Shown here: piece by piece, positions 3,290-64,000 of the stretch
Layout: the number at the start of each line of letters is the position of its first letter
Numbering within the stretch: the stretch's first letter is position 1
NCBI RefSeq assembly: GCF_014698505.1
Contig: NZ_JACJTD010000002.1
Coordinates: forward strand, 186,001-250,000
DNA from: Nostoc foliaceum FACHB-393
GTDB taxonomy: Bacteria > Cyanobacteriota > Cyanobacteriia > Cyanobacteriales > Nostocaceae
DNA length: 64,000 nt
Reading direction: 5' to 3'
Position numbers and translations under genes: made by a program
The notes under the pieces: model-generated
Told to the model about the DNA's origin: nothing
The model's database searches: none
What the model saw: the letters and a program-made list of their open reading frames with translations, nothing else

Positions 3290-3410
3290 TACTAATAGAA
3301 GATAGGTAGCTACTCTTAAACAAAGAATAATTTTCTATTATCTCCTTGAATGAATTTGGTTACTCTAGACTATTAATTACAAATTATTCGGTTACAGCAA
3401 TTTTTTAGCA

Positions 3411-4203: not shown

Positions 4204-4280
4204 AGTAGAACAAAATCTCTTTACTAGGATAGAAGTTGAACTTTTTCTTAAAGTTTACTATTCCTAAATAAAAATCTATC

Positions 4281-55057: not shown

Positions 55058-58000
55058 CTACTGCGTAGCTACAGCAATCACTCCTCCTAATGCAGAGAAA
55101 ATCGCAGATACGGTTGCTGTGGCAAACAGCCACCAAGATGCTGAAGCTGCGGCTTTGCGGGTTTCTTCCGCTTGCCGCTGTGCTTGATGCTTCACCTGTT
55201 CTAGGCGGCGTTGGGCTTCATGCTGTATGCGTTCTGCACGTTGCAATACTGTGTTGCGTGCCCGTTCAATTTGGTCAATAATCCGGTTGGCATCTTCCTC
55301 AGAGATGTCCTCACGAGAACTCATAATTGCCACTAGGGTATCACGGTCAAAAGAAGACAGGCGATCGCGCAGAGCATCAAACCCTGCCTGGGGATCGTCA
55401 AAAAATGTGCGAACATCGCGCTTGATATTATCATAGTTAAGTTCCGGGCGATCCAAGGAGTTGAGATAGTTACGAATGCGGGCAAAAACCCCGTCAATCG
55501 CATCTTGAATGCCTCGTTGGATATTCCGCACTTGTTCTACAAATTGATCCCTTACGGACACAATATTATCGGCAATCCGCGCTGCTTCTTCATCGGAAAT
55601 ATCTTCCCGAATTTTCAGCAGGGCGATGATGGTAGAACGGTCAAAATGGGAAAGGCGATCGCTAAAAGTTTCTACTCCAACTCGTGGATCGTGTAACAGT
55701 AGTTGCAAGTCGCGTTTGATACCTTCAGGATTAAGTTCTTCCTTCCCGGTTTGGCGCAGATACTCTTCTAGATAAGCTTTGAATGTTTCTGCTCTTTGCT
55801 GTGTCCGGGTAGCTAGGCGACGAGGCGCACGGACAAAATTACGAATCGAAGTTTGGGTGGAATCAATGATTTCATTGACTTGTTCTTCACTCAAGTCTTT
55901 GCGTTGACTGAGCAATTTCACCAGTGTATCGCGGTCTATCTGCGACAACCGACGGCGCAGTGCTACGGCTCCCTCTTTGGGATTTTCAAACAATCTGGTC
56001 AAATCTCGCCCAATTCCTTCTGGATTGAGTTCTTGTTTACCAGTATTCCGTAGGTAATCTGCGATCGTAGTAGTAACAGAGTCGTATTGCTCTTTGGCTT
56101 TATCCACAACAGCTTGGGGTGTGTGGCGAATATTATGCCAAGACTCCTCGGCAGCATTGATGATTTGATTAACTTGATCTTCACTCAAATCTTGGCGTTG
56201 ACTCAACAATTGCACCAAGGTATCGCGGTCAAAGCGAGACAACCGCGCCCGAATTGAGCTAATTCCAGCTTGGGGATCTTCCAGTAACCTTTTGAACTCT
56301 GCGCGGATGGCATCAGGATTTAGTTCTGATTTCCCTGTATTACGCAGATATGATTCTACATTCAGCCACAGGGTTTCTGCTTGATATTGTGCCTGTTCAG
56401 CCAGCCCTTTGGATTCTACCAAGACGCGATCGCGTTGTTTTTCCAACTCGTCCAGAATGCTGTCTACTTCATATAGCTGAATATCATTCCGTTCCAGCAA
56501 TATCTCCCGAATTTCCTGACGTTCCAGGTGGGCTAGTCGCAATGTCAGGGTTTCATAATCTGCCTCTGAGTCTTGCAACAGTGGTTTGAAATTCTGCTCA
56601 ATACCAACGGGAGTCAAATCTGCTTTCGGGGTAACGAGCAGATAACTTTCGACTGCGCGTTGTAAGTCTTGGACTATCTCTCTTTCTTCGATACCTGTAA
56701 CTGTCACTAGCACTTCTTTGCGGACAGCTTCTAGCTGATCTGCAATGCGCTGAATTTGGACTTGGGTAAGCAGTCCCCGTTGTTGCAAGATATTGACGAA
56801 ATCGTTGCGAGATAGTCGTTCTAATTCCCTGCGGACGATTCCAGGATCAGCTGCTGGGTCGTAAATGACATCACGAAATTCCTGGGCGATTTTTTCCTGA
56901 CTCAGTTGCCAAGCATAAGTGTTGTGCAGGTAGTTTTCGACATCAGCCCGAATTGGGCTATAGGGTTCTGATGGTGTTGGCAAACCTAGCTTATCTGCTT
57001 GTTGGGTGACTTTTTCTTTGGCGGTGGTGAGGCTACGCAAGATTTTTTCCACATCCAAATCAGACAAATCTGTGCGTCCCAACACAATGCCGGTTAAGGC
57101 AGATAGTCCTTGCTGGAGTGTACTTTGAATGGGCCCAACGGCTGCCTTTTGGTCAGCTTCTTTAGAGCCACGCATTTCTGCTACTAATCGATCCAGTTTG
57201 GCGTTGAGTTCATCTGTCTTGCTTTGTCCTGGTGGAAGTGATTTCAGATAATCCATTAACTCACCCATGCGGTCTTGGGTGGGTGGTTGCTGGCTCACTA
57301 CCTGTTGCCAAACTTTGTACAACGTATCAGCAATCCGGTTAACGTCTTTTTTAGAAAGGTCGGTGCGACTGCTGACTAACTCGATAAACTTTTGGCGGTC
57401 GATGTTGCGGATATCTGGAGTCCCTGCGATCGCTTTTAGTTGCGGATCGTTGAGTAAATTTTCAAAATCACTCCGAATCTTTGACACATCTAGTTCTGGA
57501 GGACGTAGCTTGTCTAAGTAATCCTCTATGTTCTCTCGGATACTCACAGGGTCGATGGCGCTGCCTAATTCCCGGCGGACAGCGGCGGCGGCGGCTTCAG
57601 CTGTCGCTACCACTTGGCTATTCACAGCCTTTGCGCCCAGTGCGGCGGTCGCTGTCCCCATAATCGCTTGAAAACCGGAAGTTGCCGTATTGACGACTGA
57701 GCCAATTAAGGAACCCACGGTGGTGGAACTTACCCAGACAAGGAGCAAAAAGTAAGCGCCCCAAATCACCAAACCGAGAATCGCCCCCAATGCTGGGTCT
57801 AAGATTACAAGGCTTAATTTAACCGCGAGAAAAGAAGCGATTAATAAAGCGATCGTCACAGTGACTAATGTCCAAATCCCCACTGCGGTGCCAATTTTGC
57901 GAATGTTACCGCCCAAACTTCCGGCTTCCCCAGTATCTGAATCCGAGTCAGATGAGTGCCCCAGGTAGGAAATACCGGCTGCAAGGGAGAGATTAGTTAG

Positions 58001-58177
58001 AACTAATTGGAAAGCAAAGGCTAGGATCACGCCGGAGATTAAAGCCACGAAAAAGCGCGGCCCGGAAGTGAGAACCGATGCCTGTGCTGGCGTGACATTT
58101 GAGGGATCTACTGGAATCTGTGCCACCCACAATAGTGGTTTGTAGAGTCCCAGCATGATTTCCGTACTTTGGAACAT
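55058..58177 (-). CDS. Large membrane protein with seven repeats of about 100 residues (uncharacterised)
   Basis: The 1039-residue protein has three membrane helices near the N-terminus (about 40-66, 95-120, 124-150) and one near the C-terminus (about 1008-1035). Between them are about seven repeats of the form YLRNTGKxELNPEGIxxD, LLxDPxxGxxxLRxRLSxFD, RDTLVxLLSQRxDLSEExVN, IIDxxE. Each repeat is followed by a variable helical linker, the last rich in Gln, Glu and Arg. I do not recognise a known domain or catalytic site. The charged helical repeats suggest a long rod or scaffold held at both ends by membrane segments. The gene has its own terminator. Confidence 0.85.
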   Translation of the reverse strand: MFQSTEIMLGLYKPLLWVAQIPVDPSNVTPAQASVLTSGPRFFVALISGVILAFAFQLVLTNLSLAAGISYLGHSSDSDSDTGEAGSLGGNIRKIGTAVGIWTLVTVTIALLIASFLAVKLSLVILDPALGAILGLVIWGAYFLLLVWVSSTTVGSLIGSVVNTATSGFQAIMGTATAALGAKAVNSQVVATAEAAAAAVRRELGSAIDPVSIRENIEDYLDKLRPPELDVSKIRSDFENLLNDPQLKAIAGTPDIRNIDRQKFIELVSSRTDLSKKDVNRIADTLYKVWQQVVSQQPPTQDRMGELMDYLKSLPPGQSKTDELNAKLDRLVAEMRGSKEADQKAAVGPIQSTLQQGLSALTGIVLGRTDLSDLDVEKILRSLTTAKEKVTQQADKLGLPTPSEPYSPIRADVENYLHNTYAWQLSQEKIAQEFRDVIYDPAADPGIVRRELERLSRNDFVNILQQRGLLTQVQIQRIADQLEAVRKEVLVTVTGIEEREIVQDLQRAVESYLLVTPKADLTPVGIEQNFKPLLQDSEADYETLTLRLAHLERQEIREILLERNDIQLYEVDSILDELEKQRDRVLVESKGLAEQAQYQAETLWLNVESYLRNTGKSELNPDAIRAEFKRLLEDPQAGISSIRARLSRFDRDTLVQLLSQRQDLSEDQVNQIINAAEESWHNIRHTPQAVVDKAKEQYDSVTTTIADYLRNTGKQELNPEGIGRDLTRLFENPKEGAVALRRRLSQIDRDTLVKLLSQRKDLSEEQVNEIIDSTQTSIRNFVRAPRRLATRTQQRAETFKAYLEEYLRQTGKEELNPEGIKRDLQLLLHDPRVGVETFSDRLSHFDRSTIIALLKIREDISDEEAARIADNIVSVRDQFVEQVRNIQRGIQDAIDGVFARIRNYLNSLDRPELNYDNIKRDVRTFFDDPQAGFDALRDRLSSFDRDTLVAIMSSREDISEEDANRIIDQIERARNTVLQRAERIQHEAQRRLEQVKHQAQRQAEETRKAAASASWWLFATATVSAIFSALGGVIAVATQ

Positions 58178-58913: not shown

Positions 58914-59126
58914 ATGGCAACTCAAGAAACTCGTTCTTCTACTGATTTACCACCTGTTGCACCAGAATACAACGGCATAGATCGCAATGCTTTTCTTTTT
59001 GGTTGGACACCTCAAGCCGAAATTTGGAATGGTCGCTTGGCAGCAATTGGCTTTCTTGCCTATTTGCTTTGGGATTTAGCCGGTTATAGCGTCCTGCGCG
59101 ATGTTTTACATCTGATTAGCTACTAG
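58914..59126 (+). CDS. High-light-inducible protein (HLIP/SCP), copy 1
   Basis: The 70-residue protein has a soluble N-terminus and one membrane helix with the chlorophyll-binding motif AEIWNGRLAAIGFLAYLLWDLAG. HLIPs protect photosystem II assembly by binding chlorophyll and carotenoid. GGAGG lies five bases ahead of the ATG. The next copy follows after 40 bp, nearly identical in sequence. Confidence 0.95.
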   Translation: MATQETRSSTDLPPVAPEYNGIDRNAFLFGWTPQAEIWNGRLAAIGFLAYLLWDLAGYSVLRDVLHLISY

Positions 59127-59166
59127 AAATTATCACCTAAAAAGCTACTAGATTTTGGAGAAAAAA

Positions 59167-59379
59167 ATGGCAACTCAAGAAACTCGCCCCTCCACTGATT
59201 TACCAACTGTTGCTAAAGCTTACAACGGCATAGATCGTAATGCATTTCTATTTGGTTGGACACCTCAAGCCGAACTTTGGAATGGTCGCTTGGCAGCAAT
59301 TGGTTTTCTAGCCTATTTACTTTGGGATTTAGCTGGTTATAGCGTCTTAAGGGACGTACTACACCTAATTGGATATTAG
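59167..59379 (+). CDS. High-light-inducible protein (HLIP/SCP), copy 2
   Basis: From ATG 59167 (MATQETRPSTDLPTVAKAYN) the protein has 70 residues; GGAG lies six bases upstream, and a TTG at 59155 would use up that ribosome site. The motif AELWNGRLAAIGFLAYLLWD is intact. It differs from copy 1 at a few residues and arose by tandem duplication, as did the decayed copy upstream. Confidence 0.95.
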   Translation: MATQETRPSTDLPTVAKAYNGIDRNAFLFGWTPQAELWNGRLAAIGFLAYLLWDLAGYSVLRDVLHLIGY

Positions 59380-59433
59380 CAATAGCTCAGGATTGATAAG
59401 TAAGCGAGTATAAATAAATACTCTAGCCATAAA

Positions 59434-59458
59434 CCCGGCTTCTCACTAAAAGTCGGGG
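59434..59458 (+). terminator. Probable terminator of the HLIP cluster
   Basis: CCCGGCTT pairs with AAGTCGGG (one G-U pair) across a short loop and is followed by a short T-containing run. Confidence 0.55.
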
Positions 59459-59539
59459 ATTTATCTCTTGAGCATTTTATCTTTAATTAGGAGTACAAGC
59501 CGTTACATAATCTTTGATTTGGTTGTTTGCACGGCCTTT

Positions 59540-59614
59540 GCGGACTGGCTAGCGTTACGCTATGAGTGATAAATCCAGAAGCTAACACTGATAGCGTAGC
59601 GTTAGGAAGTCCGC
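59540..59614. repeat. Imperfect inverted repeat, 23-bp arms
   Basis: GCGGACTGGCTAGCGTTACG followed by CTA (59540-59562) and its near reverse complement at 59592-59614 form a 75-bp palindrome. More short GC-rich dispersed repeats follow to about 59700. They fill the 375-bp gap between the HLIP cluster and the transporter gene. Confidence 0.7.
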
Positions 59615-59754
59615 GAACGCATTTGTACGAATTACGTTCGCGCAACCGTAGCGAGTCTGCGTACCCCTGTGGGGAAGCAAGCTACGCGCAACGTGTTGTA
59701 GAGAGCGTAATTATCAATAATATGAATTACTGAATTACTTTGACCCTTTCCTAT

Positions 59755-61092
59755 CTAGAGCAAAAAGCGAACTAACACGTACAAAGCCGAAGCTACAAGT
59801 TGCAATACCATCACTGGGATACCGTAGTGTAGAAAAGTTTTAAATGATATACGGCGTCCATGCTGCTCAGAAATCCCGGCGGCTACAATGTTAGATGATG
59901 CTCCTACTAGTGTGCCATTACCTCCCAAAGTTGCACCAAACATCATTGCATAAAATAGTGGTAATACTTCTGGCGGAAACTGTCCTTGAAAGTCTTGTGC
60001 TAAAACTTCTGCGGGTGCTAATCCGACAGTAACAATATATTGTTTGAGTAAGGGCACCATCCCCACCACTAAAGGAATATTGGGCACTACGCTTGATAAT
60101 ATTCCCACAAAAAATAATAAAACTAGGGAACCCAGGACAATATTTTTTCCTAAAATTACTGCCAATACCCCTGATAAGCCATTAATTACACCTGTTTTTT
60201 CTAGTCCTCCAATTAATACAAAAATACTCATAAAAAAGATTAATGTACTCCAGTCTACATCCCGCAAAATGTTGTTGACTGAATCAATTTTGCTATGGTG
60301 AGATAAAAGCAAAGCTAAAGCTGCTCCTAACAAAGCTACCGCAGCAGGCGAGATCGGAACTGGTAAAGATTCTCCAATGACAAAAAACAGCAAGACAAAA
60401 AATACAATAACTGCACCTAAGCTTAAAGCTCGTGGATGATTGATTTTTGGGTGTGGCAGTTCTTCAAGATTATCTAACTGAGTATTCCAAATTTTACGGA
60501 ATAAAAATGGTAGTGTTGCAATTACTACGGCAACGGCAATTACTCCCCCTAAACTTAATTTAAACAAATAATCTATAAAGCTGATATTCACAGCATCACC
60601 AACAATAAATGTAGCTGGATCTCCAACTAAAGTCAGCAGTCCGGCACTATTAGCAACAAACACCATTAAAATCAACAAGGGTACGAAATTTATCCCAACT
60701 TCCTGTGCCATTGGTGGAATTAAAGGAGCTAATAGCATTACTGTTGTGGCATTTGGTAAAACTGCACAGATGGGTGTAACAATAGCCACGATGCCAAGTA
60801 ATAGACGCTTGCCTTGTCCTTTAGCTATGAGTACTATTTGAGTAGCTAAATAATCAAATATTTTTGTAGGCTCAAAAGCCCGCACTAAGACCATAACTCC
60901 AAAGAATAAACCGAGTGTTCCATGACTGTTGCCGATATAACCAACAGCTTCTTCTAAAGTCATGACGTTGGTAAAAACTAATAACAATGCTCCCAACAAT
61001 GCCGCAATGGTTAGATGTACCCATTCCGTCATTACTAAAACAATGACGCTTATAAATGTAATTACGCTGAGGATTGCTTGCCAGTTTTCCAC
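59755..61092 (-). CDS. ArsB/NhaD (SLC13-type) ion transporter
   Basis: The 445-residue protein has about eleven membrane helices and the ion-transporter superfamily motifs: VTPICAVLPNATTVMLLAPLIPPM, NSAGLLTLVGDPATFIVGD, GVLSSVVPNIPLVVGMVPLL-type and MMFGATLGGNGTLVGASSNIVAAG. These fit Na+/H+ antiporters (NhaD), arsenite pumps (ArsB) and dicarboxylate transporters. No ars genes are adjacent. It lies 113 bp behind the Usp gene, below a c-di-AMP riboswitch, which favours ion or osmotic homeostasis. Confidence 0.9.
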   Translation of the reverse strand: MENWQAILSVITFISVIVLVMTEWVHLTIAALLGALLLVFTNVMTLEEAVGYIGNSHGTLGLFFGVMVLVRAFEPTKIFDYLATQIVLIAKGQGKRLLLGIVAIVTPICAVLPNATTVMLLAPLIPPMAQEVGINFVPLLILMVFVANSAGLLTLVGDPATFIVGDAVNISFIDYLFKLSLGGVIAVAVVIATLPFLFRKIWNTQLDNLEELPHPKINHPRALSLGAVIVFFVLLFFVIGESLPVPISPAAVALLGAALALLLSHHSKIDSVNNILRDVDWSTLIFFMSIFVLIGGLEKTGVINGLSGVLAVILGKNIVLGSLVLLFFVGILSSVVPNIPLVVGMVPLLKQYIVTVGLAPAEVLAQDFQGQFPPEVLPLFYAMMFGATLGGNGTLVGASSNIVAAGISEQHGRRISFKTFLHYGIPVMVLQLVASALYVLVRFLL

Positions 61093-61205
61093 ACCTTACC
61101 TCTCGAAGTTTAATTGGTTGCATAGTAGCGAAAAAAGTCACCTACAACTAGGTGACTTATCTATCATTACAATTGGATAAAAATTACTGAAATTCTGAAC
61201 AGTGA

Positions 61206-61826
61206 TTATTCATCAATACAACTGGGAATACCCAAAACGGCGCAGGGAAAATTAGAGCCTAGTGCCTCAATCATCGGATGATTAACAGAGTTGCAACCTA
61301 AAAACAGAATATCGGCAGTTTCTGATTCAACAACTTTGGTAAGTTCTGTGTAAATGCAGCCAAACCGCAAATGAGATTTGAAGCAACCCTGCCATTCTTC
61401 AGCCAGACTTCGGGCTTGCCAGAGAATTATATCTGCTTGTTGTAGGGGAGTTACTACTGTCTGCAATTGGGGTTGACTTAATACCAGTGTGGCAGATTTT
61501 GATACTTCATTAACTTGGCATTCCAATGAAGGCTGTTGTTGTGGAAAGCTCAAGATATTTGGATACTGGCTGCTTTGATTGTCTTCTAGTACATAAACGG
61601 CTTGAACTGTGACTTCTGCATTGGTGGCTAAACGCGTTTGATGGGCAATCCAGAAAGCAATATCTAGCGCCGTATGACTGTTAGGAGATGCGTCATAGGC
61701 AACAATTAAATTAACTGCTTTTGCTTTTTGAGGTTTTTTAGAAAAAGGTTTTTTTGGTTCTGGCAACAGTACCATTTGTTCAATTAAGTCATCTCGGCCT
61801 GTGGCACTTTGCAGACGTGCTAACAT
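61206..61826 (-). CDS. Universal stress protein-like protein
   Basis: I chose ATG 61826 (MLARLQSATGRDDLIEQMVL), giving 206 residues; upstream codons are not family-like. The UspA fold is seen in VNLIVAYDASPNSHTALDIA, EVTVQAVYVLED, ADILFLGCNSVNHP and CAVLGIPSC. The classical G-x2-G-x9-G-(S/T) ATP loop is not present in canonical form. A long insertion with Gln-rich sequence sits in the middle. It is the first gene behind the riboswitch at 62012-62142 and shares the strand with the ion transporter gene. Confidence 0.8.
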   Translation of the reverse strand: MLARLQSATGRDDLIEQMVLLPEPKKPFSKKPQKAKAVNLIVAYDASPNSHTALDIAFWIAHQTRLATNAEVTVQAVYVLEDNQSSQYPNILSFPQQQPSLECQVNEVSKSATLVLSQPQLQTVVTPLQQADIILWQARSLAEEWQGCFKSHLRFGCIYTELTKVVESETADILFLGCNSVNHPMIEALGSNFPCAVLGIPSCIDE

Positions 61827-62011
61827 TGGCTTAATTTGCACAGCTTTACTTCTCCCAATGAAATGAATTAGCAATGAGAAGCAGGGTGACAAATTTTAGA
61901 ATTTGGACTTTCCTGCGGAACGCTACGCGAACGGCTACACTCAGTCAAACGATTTTGGATTTTAGATTGAGTGATGATAACCAAAAGTTCAAATCTTAAA
62001 TCAGTCAAGGA

Positions 62012-62142
62012 AACCCCAATAATAACTGTATTACAGCCAAAGTCTTGGGGGTTCCTTCCATTGCCTACGGAGTTAGCTGACGGGCTAAGACTGGAAGGTG
62101 TCTCTCGTAAGATTAGCCCCAAACATTGGTTCCTCCGTTCCA
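62012..62142 (-). promoter_or_regulatory. c-di-AMP riboswitch (ydaO-yuaA type) with expression platform
   Basis: On the minus strand the aptamer (62142-62050) reads GGAACGGAGGAACCAAUG, UUUGGGGCUAAUCUUACGAG and UUAGCCCGUCAGCUAACUCC, then GUAGGC and GGAAGGAACC. These match the conserved blocks of B. subtilis ydaO: GGGGGACCCA, GUGGGGUGAAUC, UUAGCCCG and CCGUCAGCUAACCUCGUAAGC. A hairpin (AACCCC(C)AA ... TTGGGGTT, 62012-62053) overlaps the aptamer 3' end and can act as the switch. The Usp gene starts 186 bp downstream and an ion transporter gene follows. Confidence 0.85.
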
Positions 62143-62199
62143 AATTCAGCTTTCATGAATTTGAATTAGGCTACCCACTAAAAAAAATGATAATCTAAT

Positions 62200-63039
62200 T
62201 TACTCGTCTTGGGCAAAATATCGATCAAGGAAATTTAGGGCGTGGTTGCGGAGTTCAAAATATTCTTTTGAGTTTCGCATAGCGGCGCGATCGCGTGGAT
62301 GCTCAAAAGGAACTTTTAAAATCTCTCCTATACTAGCAGATGGGCCATTGGTCATCAAGACGATGCGATCGGACATATAAATTGCTTCATCTACATCGTG
62401 GGTAATCATCATCACTGCTTGACGATTATTTTCCCAAATATCCAATACCTGCCGCTGTAATTTGCCACGAGTTAGCGCATCTAGTGCCCCAAAAGGTTCA
62501 TCCATCAGCAACATTTTAGGACGAATTGCTAAAGCTCTAGCAATACCTACTCGTTGTTTCATACCTCCAGAAATTTCATCAGGATATTTGTCAGCCGCCG
62601 CCGTCAAGTTTACCATTGCCAAGTGTTGATTTACAATGCTGATTTTTTCAGCCCGATTAGCATTTTTTAGCACTTCATCCACAGCTAACCGGATATTTTC
62701 TCGCACTGTCAACCAAGGCAACAGCGAATAGTTCTGAAATACCATCATCCGCTCGGCTCCTGGCTGACGAATTTCTTTCCCATCTAGCCTGACTGAGCCG
62801 GAAGTTGCTTTTTCTAAACCAGCTACTATCTTTAGTAGAGTTGATTTACCACAACCAGAGTGACCAATTACAGAAATATATTCATCTTCACCAATCGTCA
62901 GATTAACTCCATCTAAAACGACAAAGTTATCTTTATCAGGTGTCGGATAAGACTTAACTAAATTTTCAATTTCTAAAAACCCAGTGCGGGGTAGAACTCC
63001 GGTCTGGGTATTAATAGGTAATGAGGTATATTCCATCAT
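62200..63039 (-). CDS. nrtD: Nitrate-type ABC transporter ATPase (NrtD/CmpD family)
   Basis: From ATG 63039, with GGGAG six bases upstream, the protein has 279 residues; a TTG at 63066 has less support. Walker A is GHSGCGKST, the signature EISGGMKQR and Walker B LLMDEPFGALD. The LEIENLVKSYPTP start and the QNYSLLPWLTV Q-loop are typical of NrtD-like ATPases for nitrate, bicarbonate or related anions. The gene follows a substrate-binding-domain gene after 262 bp, which is a wide gap for an nrt operon. Confidence 0.88.
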   Translation of the reverse strand: MMEYTSLPINTQTGVLPRTGFLEIENLVKSYPTPDKDNFVVLDGVNLTIGEDEYISVIGHSGCGKSTLLKIVAGLEKATSGSVRLDGKEIRQPGAERMMVFQNYSLLPWLTVRENIRLAVDEVLKNANRAEKISIVNQHLAMVNLTAAADKYPDEISGGMKQRVGIARALAIRPKMLLMDEPFGALDALTRGKLQRQVLDIWENNRQAVMMITHDVDEAIYMSDRIVLMTNGPSASIGEILKVPFEHPRDRAAMRNSKEYFELRNHALNFLDRYFAQDE

Positions 63040-63301
63040 CAAAGGCTCCCGAAATAATTTAGTCAATCAATTTTGGATTGTTTCCGATCAAAAGGATGCT
63101 GCCTGTTGACGCTTTGTAAGACCAGACGCTCGATGACTCGCTACCGCTACGCTATCATCGGATTTAGTTCCGAATTTCTAGTAATAGGAATGCCTAACGT
63201 GGCAAGAACGGATGAAACGGGAAACCCAAAAGACGAATAAGACCGTCGTTGCTGTAGTTGAAATTGGAAGCTCCTTTTTCAGTGAAGCAAAAAGGGGTAC
63301 T

Positions 63302-64000
63302 TCACGACATGAAAAAGTTAGTGGGAGCGTTAGCCCTGATAGCAAAACTATTCAGATAGCCCACAGGATCGCTGGGGTCGAAGCCTTTCTTATCTATAAA
63401 TACTTCTGGTGGTTCGACCTTGTAATCATCCTTGGGGCACTCGATGCCCATTTCAGATGCTATCTCCCGATATAAATCCGTTCTCCAGCCAAGTTCTGCT
63501 AGTTTCTCGGCATTTTTGGGAAATTCCTTAATTTGTCCCCACCGTGCTGCTTGTGTCATCATCCAGATACTTCTCGATCTCCATAAGAATGTGGAGTGTT
63601 CTGCTGGCTGTTTGGGAAGGTTGTCAGGAATATCAAAAAAAATTGTGGTGTCAGCGGCTTGGATGGTGCGGTCTTTGCCGTCAAAGCCGCCATAGTTGTA
63701 GTTGCCGAGAATTCCCGGACTTGTAAACTTCGCAATTGGGGCATCTTTCTTTTTAGGTCTTGCACCTGTAAAGGAACGGTCTGTAATCAGTTCGGCTACT
63801 TCTTGGCGGTTTTCTATTTTGCTGCAATACTGACAGGCTTCAATCATCGCCTTGACTAAAGAACGATAGGTTTTGGGATATTTGTCGATGAAAGATTCCA
63901 TCACCCCCAAAAGTCGATCTGGGTGTCCCAACCAGACTTCTTTACCTTGTGCGAAAGTAAAGCCGATGTTTTCGTTACCTGTTATTGCCCTTGTGTTCCA
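63302..64000 (-). CDS. NrtA/NrtC-type substrate-binding domain, C-terminal part (partial)
   Basis: The frame is open from the window edge and starts inside the gene with WNTRAITGNENIGFTFAQGK, then EVWLGHPDRLLGVM. It continues through AMIEACQYCSK, GNYNYGGFDGKDRTIQAADT, TTIFFDIPDN, MTQAARWGQIKEFP and VGYLNSFAIRANAPTNFFMS. This is the nitrate/bicarbonate binding domain found in NrtA/CmpA and fused to the ATPase in NrtC/CmpC. Its place before an NrtD-like gene suggests NrtC. The missing N-terminal part would decide. Confidence 0.85.
   Translation of the reverse strand, partial: WNTRAITGNENIGFTFAQGKEVWLGHPDRLLGVMESFIDKYPKTYRSLVKAMIEACQYCSKIENRQEVAELITDRSFTGARPKKKDAPIAKFTSPGILGNYNYGGFDGKDRTIQAADTTIFFDIPDNLPKQPAEHSTFLWRSRSIWMMTQAARWGQIKEFPKNAEKLAELGWRTDLYREIASEMGIECPKDDYKVEPPEVFIDKKGFDPSDPVGYLNSFAIRANAPTNFFMS

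Follow-up and report, generated by a model that had tools for sequence, protein, structure and literature searches.

A tandem c-di-AMP riboswitch-class locus with a universal stress protein gene in Nostoc foliaceum FACHB-393

We analysed a window of 64,000 nucleotides from the cyanobacterium Nostoc foliaceum FACHB-393 (contig NZ_JACJTD010000002.1, positions 186,001 to 250,000; coordinates below are those of the window, and features lie on its minus strand unless stated otherwise). Region 62161-61206 (-) is probably a riboswitch for cyclic di-adenosine monophosphate (c-di-AMP) that controls a dedicated gene for a universal stress protein (Usp), and another unit of this kind precedes it. The aptamer, the order of the genes, their conservation, a terminator behind the Usp gene and the association of a ribosome-site hairpin with the aptamer can all be read from sequence comparison and prediction.

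The aptamer and the Usp gene behind it

An earlier note on this DNA had recognized a ydaO-type aptamer on the minus strand, and an Infernal search (cmscan, window positions 59000-64000) gave a significant covariance-model match: RF00379, the ydaO/yuaA type of c-di-AMP riboswitch, at 62047-62161 (-), with 61.8 bits against a gathering cut-off of 38 bits, an E value of 5e-13 and model positions 1-134 covered in full. The only other entry in that listing was one small nucleolar RNA model at E 0.97, far under its own cut-off. Three RF00379 matches were found in the 8.87-Mb genome: besides the present one there is a same-strand copy 3.7 kb upstream, beyond the window edge, and a further copy on another contig. 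The Usp-leading copy and the upstream copy, which leads genes of an ATP-binding cassette (ABC) transporter, score nearly equally (61.8 and 62.3 bits). The third leads a glycosyltransferase gene whose product matches several families, including sucrose-phosphate synthase, with all 24 listed matches under their cut-offs. One diadenylate cyclase and one candidate 7TM-HD phosphodiesterase are also encoded in the genome. Judged by its class match the riboswitch is real, and we infer that the aptamer at 62047-62161 would bind c-di-AMP.

A pseudoknot joining the internal loop and the 3′ tail is a feature of the RF00379 class. Here its 5′ strand, CCTTCCA, lies at 62092-62098 (-) and its 3′ strand, TGGAAGG, at 62054-62060 (-), as assigned by pairing over 41 diverse leaders and, for the 3′ strand, by reading of the sequence as well. 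These were 41 of 44 thinned leaders; L163, L168 and L173 were omitted because their platforms differ. Among the alignment cells, 99.3% are paired, with four of the seven pairs invariant and three varying on one side only, so that the pseudoknot yields no covariation evidence.

The Usp gene itself occupies 61206-61841 (-) and encodes 211 amino acids; its start is most likely the GTG at 61841 and not the longer start of the listed open reading frame. The product matches PF00582 (E 1.7e-7, 32.3 bits against a cut-off of 24) and belongs to a riboswitch-associated subfamily with an invariant GCx[S/T]xxH motif. That a riboswitch precedes this gene, as the earlier note had proposed, holds well beyond the window. 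The aptamer core lies 127-307 bases upstream of the gene in 73 of 73 loci from close relatives, with Usp identities of 60-92%. In a draw across the phylum, 52 of 386 cyanobacterial genomes carry this Usp, and in 43 of the 52 the gene stands directly behind an aptamer (41 within 900 bases, plus G340 and G042). In four others it follows an aptamer and ABC genes, and in two it follows ABC genes at a contig end, the aptamer and permease being on another contig of the same genome; these two probably have the same aptamer-ABC order. The corrections for G340, G042, G008 and G039 are based on a core-sequence pattern and not on the covariance model. As a control, 18 Usp matches were found in the N. foliaceum genome, and only the window Usp adjoins an aptamer and has GCx[S/T]xxH. 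Among 64 Usp matches in five relatives, four are near an aptamer, and all four are this Usp (the G051 copy is unlisted).

Might the aptamer be a vestige that exerts no control over the Usp gene? Three Usp genes of the phylum draw do occur outside any riboswitch context. The score of the element, however, is about that of the ABC-leading aptamer, and it has been kept in every one of the 73 close relatives, which makes a vestige highly improbable.

The leader between the aptamer and the Usp gene

How might the aptamer act on the Usp gene? We propose that the leader has three parts: the aptamer with its pseudoknot, a hairpin H1 that overlaps the pseudoknot strand, and a hairpin H3 that would hide the ribosome-binding site of the Usp gene. 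Binding of c-di-AMP would then most likely set Usp translation.

Hairpin H1 (62009-62055 (-); GGAAC CCCCAA / TTGGGG T TTCC) stands directly 3′ of the aptamer. The minimum-energy structure predicted for the leader contains it (z -2.4; of 100 shuffles, 1 folds equally well), and over the 41 leaders 95.6% of the cells pair, against at most 75.1% when the arms are slid. The final two G of the strand that closes the pseudoknot also belong to the 5′ arm of H1. The competing hairpin of the earlier note therefore stands insofar as a hairpin follows the aptamer and overlaps this strand by two G; competition is a fair description of the base of H1 only. Between H1 and H3, at 61911-61932 (-), we observed a repeat-like insert, GTTCGCGTAGCGTTCCGCAGGA; by eye, similar inserts occur in a few relatives (L020, L029 and L030) and are absent from most.

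In hairpin H3 (61849-61881 (-), from folding), CTTCTC at 61881-61876 pairs with the Usp Shine-Dalgarno sequence GAGAAG at 61854-61849, for which the predicted unpaired probability is 0.01. Because the two genome sets overlap (the contigs of L048 and L211 have the same length), we counted distinct leaders and a thinned set. The median unpaired probability is 0.014 over 92 distinct aptamer-led leaders, versus 0.09-0.57 in eight Usp leaders without a nearby aptamer, seven of which are at 0.26 or above (Mann-Whitney p 1e-5). When the aptamer-led leaders were thinned to below 80% identity (n = 28), the median was 0.018 (p 7e-5). A previous count, which omitted 15 loci with an unrecognized start, had given a median of 0.01 for 103 aptamer-led leaders and 0.28-0.57 for six others; the later count applied a wider start rule and one row per distinct leader, with L163 still unrecognized and L229 outside the eight rows without an aptamer. 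The two partners of H3 also change together, being GAGAAG and CTTCTC in Nostocaceae and GAGAGG and CCTCTC in L161, L171 and L175. As judged from these leader sequences, H3 is linked to the riboswitch by association, with exceptions.

Alternatively, the leader might attenuate transcription instead of masking the ribosome site. In some compact relatives (L060, L076 and L161), terminator-like hairpins with T runs can be seen by eye between H1 and H3. In the window, however, the terminator scan lists nothing on the minus strand of the leader, and H3 accompanies the aptamer, so attenuation appears to us possible, if doubtful.

Several observations weigh against translational control by this riboswitch. 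Covariation in H1 is weak: two of its ten pairs change on both sides, which 200 of 500 shuffles equal, and counted by cell there are four double changes, which 21 of 500 shuffles equal. H3 is not exclusive to aptamer-led leaders, since 13 of the 92 exceed 0.25 and L232, a leader with no aptamer, is closed at 0.09. When the pseudoknot strand was blocked in folding of 74 leaders, the mean unpaired probability of the Shine-Dalgarno sequence was 0.064, versus 0.072 with a free tail. A promoter-like site just 5′ of the aptamer (TTGCCC-18-TATCAT, 62187-62216 (-), 9 of 12 matches) is no better than chance, such sites being no commoner than in shuffled sequence. Finally, three of the 52 phylum-draw Usp genes (G336, with an ABC remnant, G027 and G060) are those without riboswitch context.

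Three readings were set aside. H1 is conserved, yet its covariation controls are too weak for it to count as a proven covarying switch element. Blocking of the pseudoknot strand gave no useful mean difference from which ON or OFF could be predicted thermodynamically, the largest difference in any single leader being 0.43. As for a conserved promoter 5′ of the second aptamer, the block varies among relatives, and the part that is kept is only a T-rich stretch directly before the aptamer. Because folding shows no average effect of the pseudoknot on H3, any communication between the aptamer and H3 is hypothetical; by analogy with the Bacillus subtilis members of the class, c-di-AMP would be somewhat likelier to turn Usp translation OFF than ON. 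The earlier note had held that a separate Usp promoter downstream of the aptamer would speak against its proposal; by eye, we saw no conserved promoter block from aptamer to Usp in the relatives, which were not promoter-scanned. The aptamer-to-Usp leaders differ among relatives in both length and sequence.

Neighbouring genes and the wider regulon

Behind the Usp gene lies a strong intrinsic terminator (61135-61158 (-)), a 10-pair stem followed by TTTT, which an independent terminator scan ranked first. The conserved hairpin type is AAGTCACCTA-NNNN-TAGGTGRCTT with a T run; of the 38 loci with both a Usp gene and a transporter gene, the window included, 36 have it between the two (the exceptions are L036 and L063). 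Because the same type also follows the Usp gene in 21 of the 36 loci that lack the transporter, the terminator appears to end the Usp messenger on its own account; of the remaining loci without the transporter, five have another hairpin and ten have none within 150 bases.

The gene beyond the terminator (59755-61092 (-)) encodes a CitMHS/ArsB-type transporter, with matches to PF03600 (E 1.8e-64) and PF02040 (E 2.9e-16). The earlier note had named a Usp-like protein and an ArsB/NhaD-type transporter as the next genes. The first assignment stands, as does the second at the Pfam level, where the broader ArsB model is passed (60.3 against 22.2 bits). The exact functions do not: the transporter scores 49.2 bits against a cut-off of 577.1 with the NhaD Na+/H+ antiporter model TIGR00775, and 100.9 against 457, 93.4 against 760 and 92.3 against 415 bits with the NCBIfam models of the ArsB arsenite pump. 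Perhaps it is of the type of Slr0753, which would be a member of the same protein family. The transporter matches the CitMHS/ArsB family, and in 29 survey loci, though not here, such a gene comes first after an aptamer.

Are the two genes expressed together? The order sought in relatives, Usp and then the transporter, is present in 37 of the 73 loci; among the 36 that lack it, five have under 1.5 kb of sequence beyond the Usp gene. A single operon, with one messenger from about 62150 to 59755 and both genes set by this aptamer, would agree with that order and with the window's transporter family f1: its 17 genes, of which one is broken, all have an aptamer on their own strand within 8 kb upstream. 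It would also agree with L209, where, behind the aptamer, the gap from Usp is only 11 bases to the transporter frame and 38 to its conserved start, so that a single messenger is likely in that locus. Against it stand the terminator between the genes in 36 of 38 loci and its recurrence behind Usp where the transporter is missing. Because of this conserved terminator, the shared transcript that the earlier note had inferred is unsupported here, and we regard such an operon as distinctly unlikely. Under the proposed translational riboswitch, the Usp messenger would mostly end at 61158-61135, and the transporter would be made by read-through or from a start of its own.

The locus is also wider than the earlier note described, in that its aptamers form a tandem and the other aptamer and most of the ABC operon lie outside the window. 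The upstream aptamer (equivalent to 65781-66021 (-)) leads genes for a permease (64832-65683 (-)), a substrate-binding protein (63302-64000 (-), extending to 64744) and an ATP-binding subunit (62200-63066 (-)), in that order; aptamer and permease were located by the genome search beyond the window edge. The three proteins are related to NrtABCD/CmpABCD. The permease exceeds the ntrB cut-off and the ATPase that of ntrCD (TIGR01184, 364 against 291.8 bits), and the binding protein matches structures of NrtC, CmpC, NrtA and CmpA but, at 1e-10, no NCBIfam model. In 64 of the 73 close-relative loci the upstream aptamer and the permease are likewise present; of the other nine, L022 and L067 begin less than 300 bases from where their contig ends, upstream of the gene for the ATPase. 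The upstream aptamer, which would control the NrtABC-like importer, has another and commoner platform than the Usp-leading one, so that two aptamers that differ in platform stand naturally in tandem in this locus.

The gap between the ATPase stop and the second aptamer is only 38 bases, and in L123, L129, L142 and L191 the Usp gene follows ABC genes and lacks a separate aptamer. Both aptamers might thus lie on one long messenger that starts before the ABC genes, with Usp under two serial c-di-AMP switches. Against this, the Dolichospermum/Anabaena loci L068, L069 and L071-L073 carry the second aptamer and Usp without ABC genes, and because those genes are missing there, a separate start for the aptamer-Usp unit must exist in these loci. 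On balance we consider serial control unlikely, and prefer the Usp-leading aptamer as a unit of its own.

We propose that both units are the local part of a cyanobacterial c-di-AMP regulon for ions and osmolytes. The search of the 386 genomes, under stricter filters, gave 142 RF00379 matches in 93 genomes, of which 140 are above the cut-off (the two listed below it are in G233 and G129); at least two aptamers (G042 and G340) escaped it and were recognized by pattern. Same-strand pairs less than 6 kb apart number 19, one of which depends on the below-cut-off match in G129. Behind the 142 aptamer cores (122 loci), the first gene is classed as abcP in 51 cases, usp in 42, the transporter in 29 and a glycosyltransferase in five; abcS and abcA occur once each, ten are other genes and three cores have none. 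Three recurrent target modules, the NrtABC-like importer, the CitMHS transporter and the distinct Usp, are thus the first gene behind 122 of the 142 cores. Of 67 transporter genes in the survey, 31 are no more than 900 bases from an aptamer (29 as its first gene, G070 behind a small frame and G191 behind Usp) and a further 18 no more than 8 kb; eight have none although their genome has some, and ten are in genomes in which none was found. The regulon suggested by the earlier note, which joined Usp, the transporter family and the riboswitch, is borne out across cyanobacteria by these 29 of 142 cores and by the 17 of 17 f1 copies. Probably, c-di-AMP sets a whole salt-and-osmosis gene kit.

Some survey loci deserve separate description. 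In L131 (2600-4753 (-)) and L134 (669-3164 (+)), the first gene behind the aptamer encodes a CPA2-type cation:proton antiporter with a built-in Usp domain, which is a second link between Usp and the c-di-AMP riboswitch. In L126 that gene encodes a P-type cation ATPase. ExoD-like genes stand directly behind the aptamer in L116 (607-1215 (+)), followed by a CitMHS transporter, and in L124 (4045-4650 (-)), followed by a P-type cation ATPase. In L054, from Nostocales cyanobacterium LEGE 11386, three c-di-AMP aptamers lie within about 4.5 kb, with the glycosyltransferase aptamer at 3404 (-) head to head with the ABC aptamer at 4267 (+). In L242 (G385, from about 3114), the transporter gene that follows the aptamer and Usp is itself broken by stops.

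Elsewhere in the window, two closely similar small tandem genes on the plus strand (58914-59126 and 59155-59379) have weak chlorophyll a/b-binding (HLIP-like) matches, with E values of 0.002-0.003, just under the Pfam cut-off. A gene at 55058-58177 (-) encodes a protein of 1039 amino acids with several repeated segments (like DRDTLVKLLSQRxDLSEEQVN), and its only Pfam match is a weak one to a DNA-binding (HU-type) family (E 2.2e-5).

The Usp protein and comparison with known systems

The fold of the Usp was predicted with a pLDDT of 76.8, residues 98-127, a loop of about 30 residues, being unreliable. The top Foldseek matches of the model are Usp structures, the best being TeaD of Halomonas elongata (3hgm, E 2.2e-6); this match is not exclusive, as 41 Protein Data Bank (PDB) chains fall at E of 0.001 or less. 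A PDB profile search with the Usp alignment gave nothing at E 0.1. Residues G182, C183 and H188 are invariant in 34 of 34 Usp sequences that were hand-picked for diversity. Two nucleotide-binding motifs, as defined in PMC8214093, were sought: the ATP motif of UspFG, G-X2-G-X9-G-(S/T), occurs in none of 74 close relatives (window included) and none of the 34 diverse sequences, and the c-di-AMP motif of KdpD, (A/G/C)XSXSX2N(Y/F), in none of the 34 and none of the 73 close relatives. The Usp was therefore rejected both as an ATP-binding UspFG type and as a KdpD-like c-di-AMP binder, and the suggestion of the earlier note that it might bind c-di-AMP found no support in its motifs.

Gene order and the parallel with TeaD suggest that the Usp may be a transporter partner; it probably tunes one of the local transporters, a role also attributed to TeaD with respect to TeaABC. 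We further speculate, with low confidence, that this subfamily could serve as the protein branch of the c-di-AMP regulon in cyanobacteria, its amount set through the riboswitch, a nucleotide read at the GCx[S/T]xxH site and the co-regulated ABC importer or chloride-type exporter gated. If this gating were true, one messenger would set both the supply of a transporter and its activity. The survey gives this Usp, which is otherwise undefined, a place that can be tested.

In cyanobacteria, c-di-AMP is reported, in the open-licence texts, to be important for salt, osmotic and night-time survival, and the one RNA target named there is slr0753, the synthesis and transport of osmoprotectants being mentioned in general terms. 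No paper naming a Usp as a c-di-AMP riboswitch target was found among these texts, and the lists in Nelson 2013 and Mantovani 2022 may contain one. The riboswitch thus belongs to a known class, and its target here is well conserved and one that we did not find named in print.

How does the locus compare with known systems? Like other members of the RF00379 class, the aptamer is a full-length, above-cut-off match, and it precedes a stress-type gene among genes for ion transport; it differs in having a Usp target, in a leader that ends in a ribosome-site hairpin, and in having as its tandem partner another aptamer at the head of an ABC operon. In Synechocystis, a c-di-AMP riboswitch reportedly controls the putative chloride efflux gene slr0753 (PMC10117731), to which suppressors of a psbV mutant have been mapped (PMC9896922). 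Ncr1680, which is tabulated with slr0753 (PMC5386190), would hold that riboswitch. Both systems place a cyanobacterial c-di-AMP riboswitch before a transporter, and the window's transporter family is first behind 29 of the 142 cores; here, in contrast, the Usp gene and the terminator that follows it intervene between the aptamer and the transporter gene. The NrtABCD and CmpABCD systems resemble the upstream operon in permease, ATPase and binding-protein structure, whereas the operon has the order permease, binding protein, ATPase under a c-di-AMP aptamer, and its binding protein lacks an NCBIfam match. For TeaD, we know of no riboswitch. It resembles the window Usp as the best structural match and in being encoded beside an osmolyte transporter (PMC9453808), but its neighbour, the ectoine transporter TeaABC, is of the TRAP type and not an ABC or CitMHS transporter. 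The Usp domain of KdpD (PMC8214093) likewise lacks a Walker A motif, and the window Usp keeps the first Gly of that motif by alignment reading; the c-di-AMP motif of KdpD, in contrast, sets that domain apart from all 34 diverse and all 73 closely related Usp sequences of the window type.

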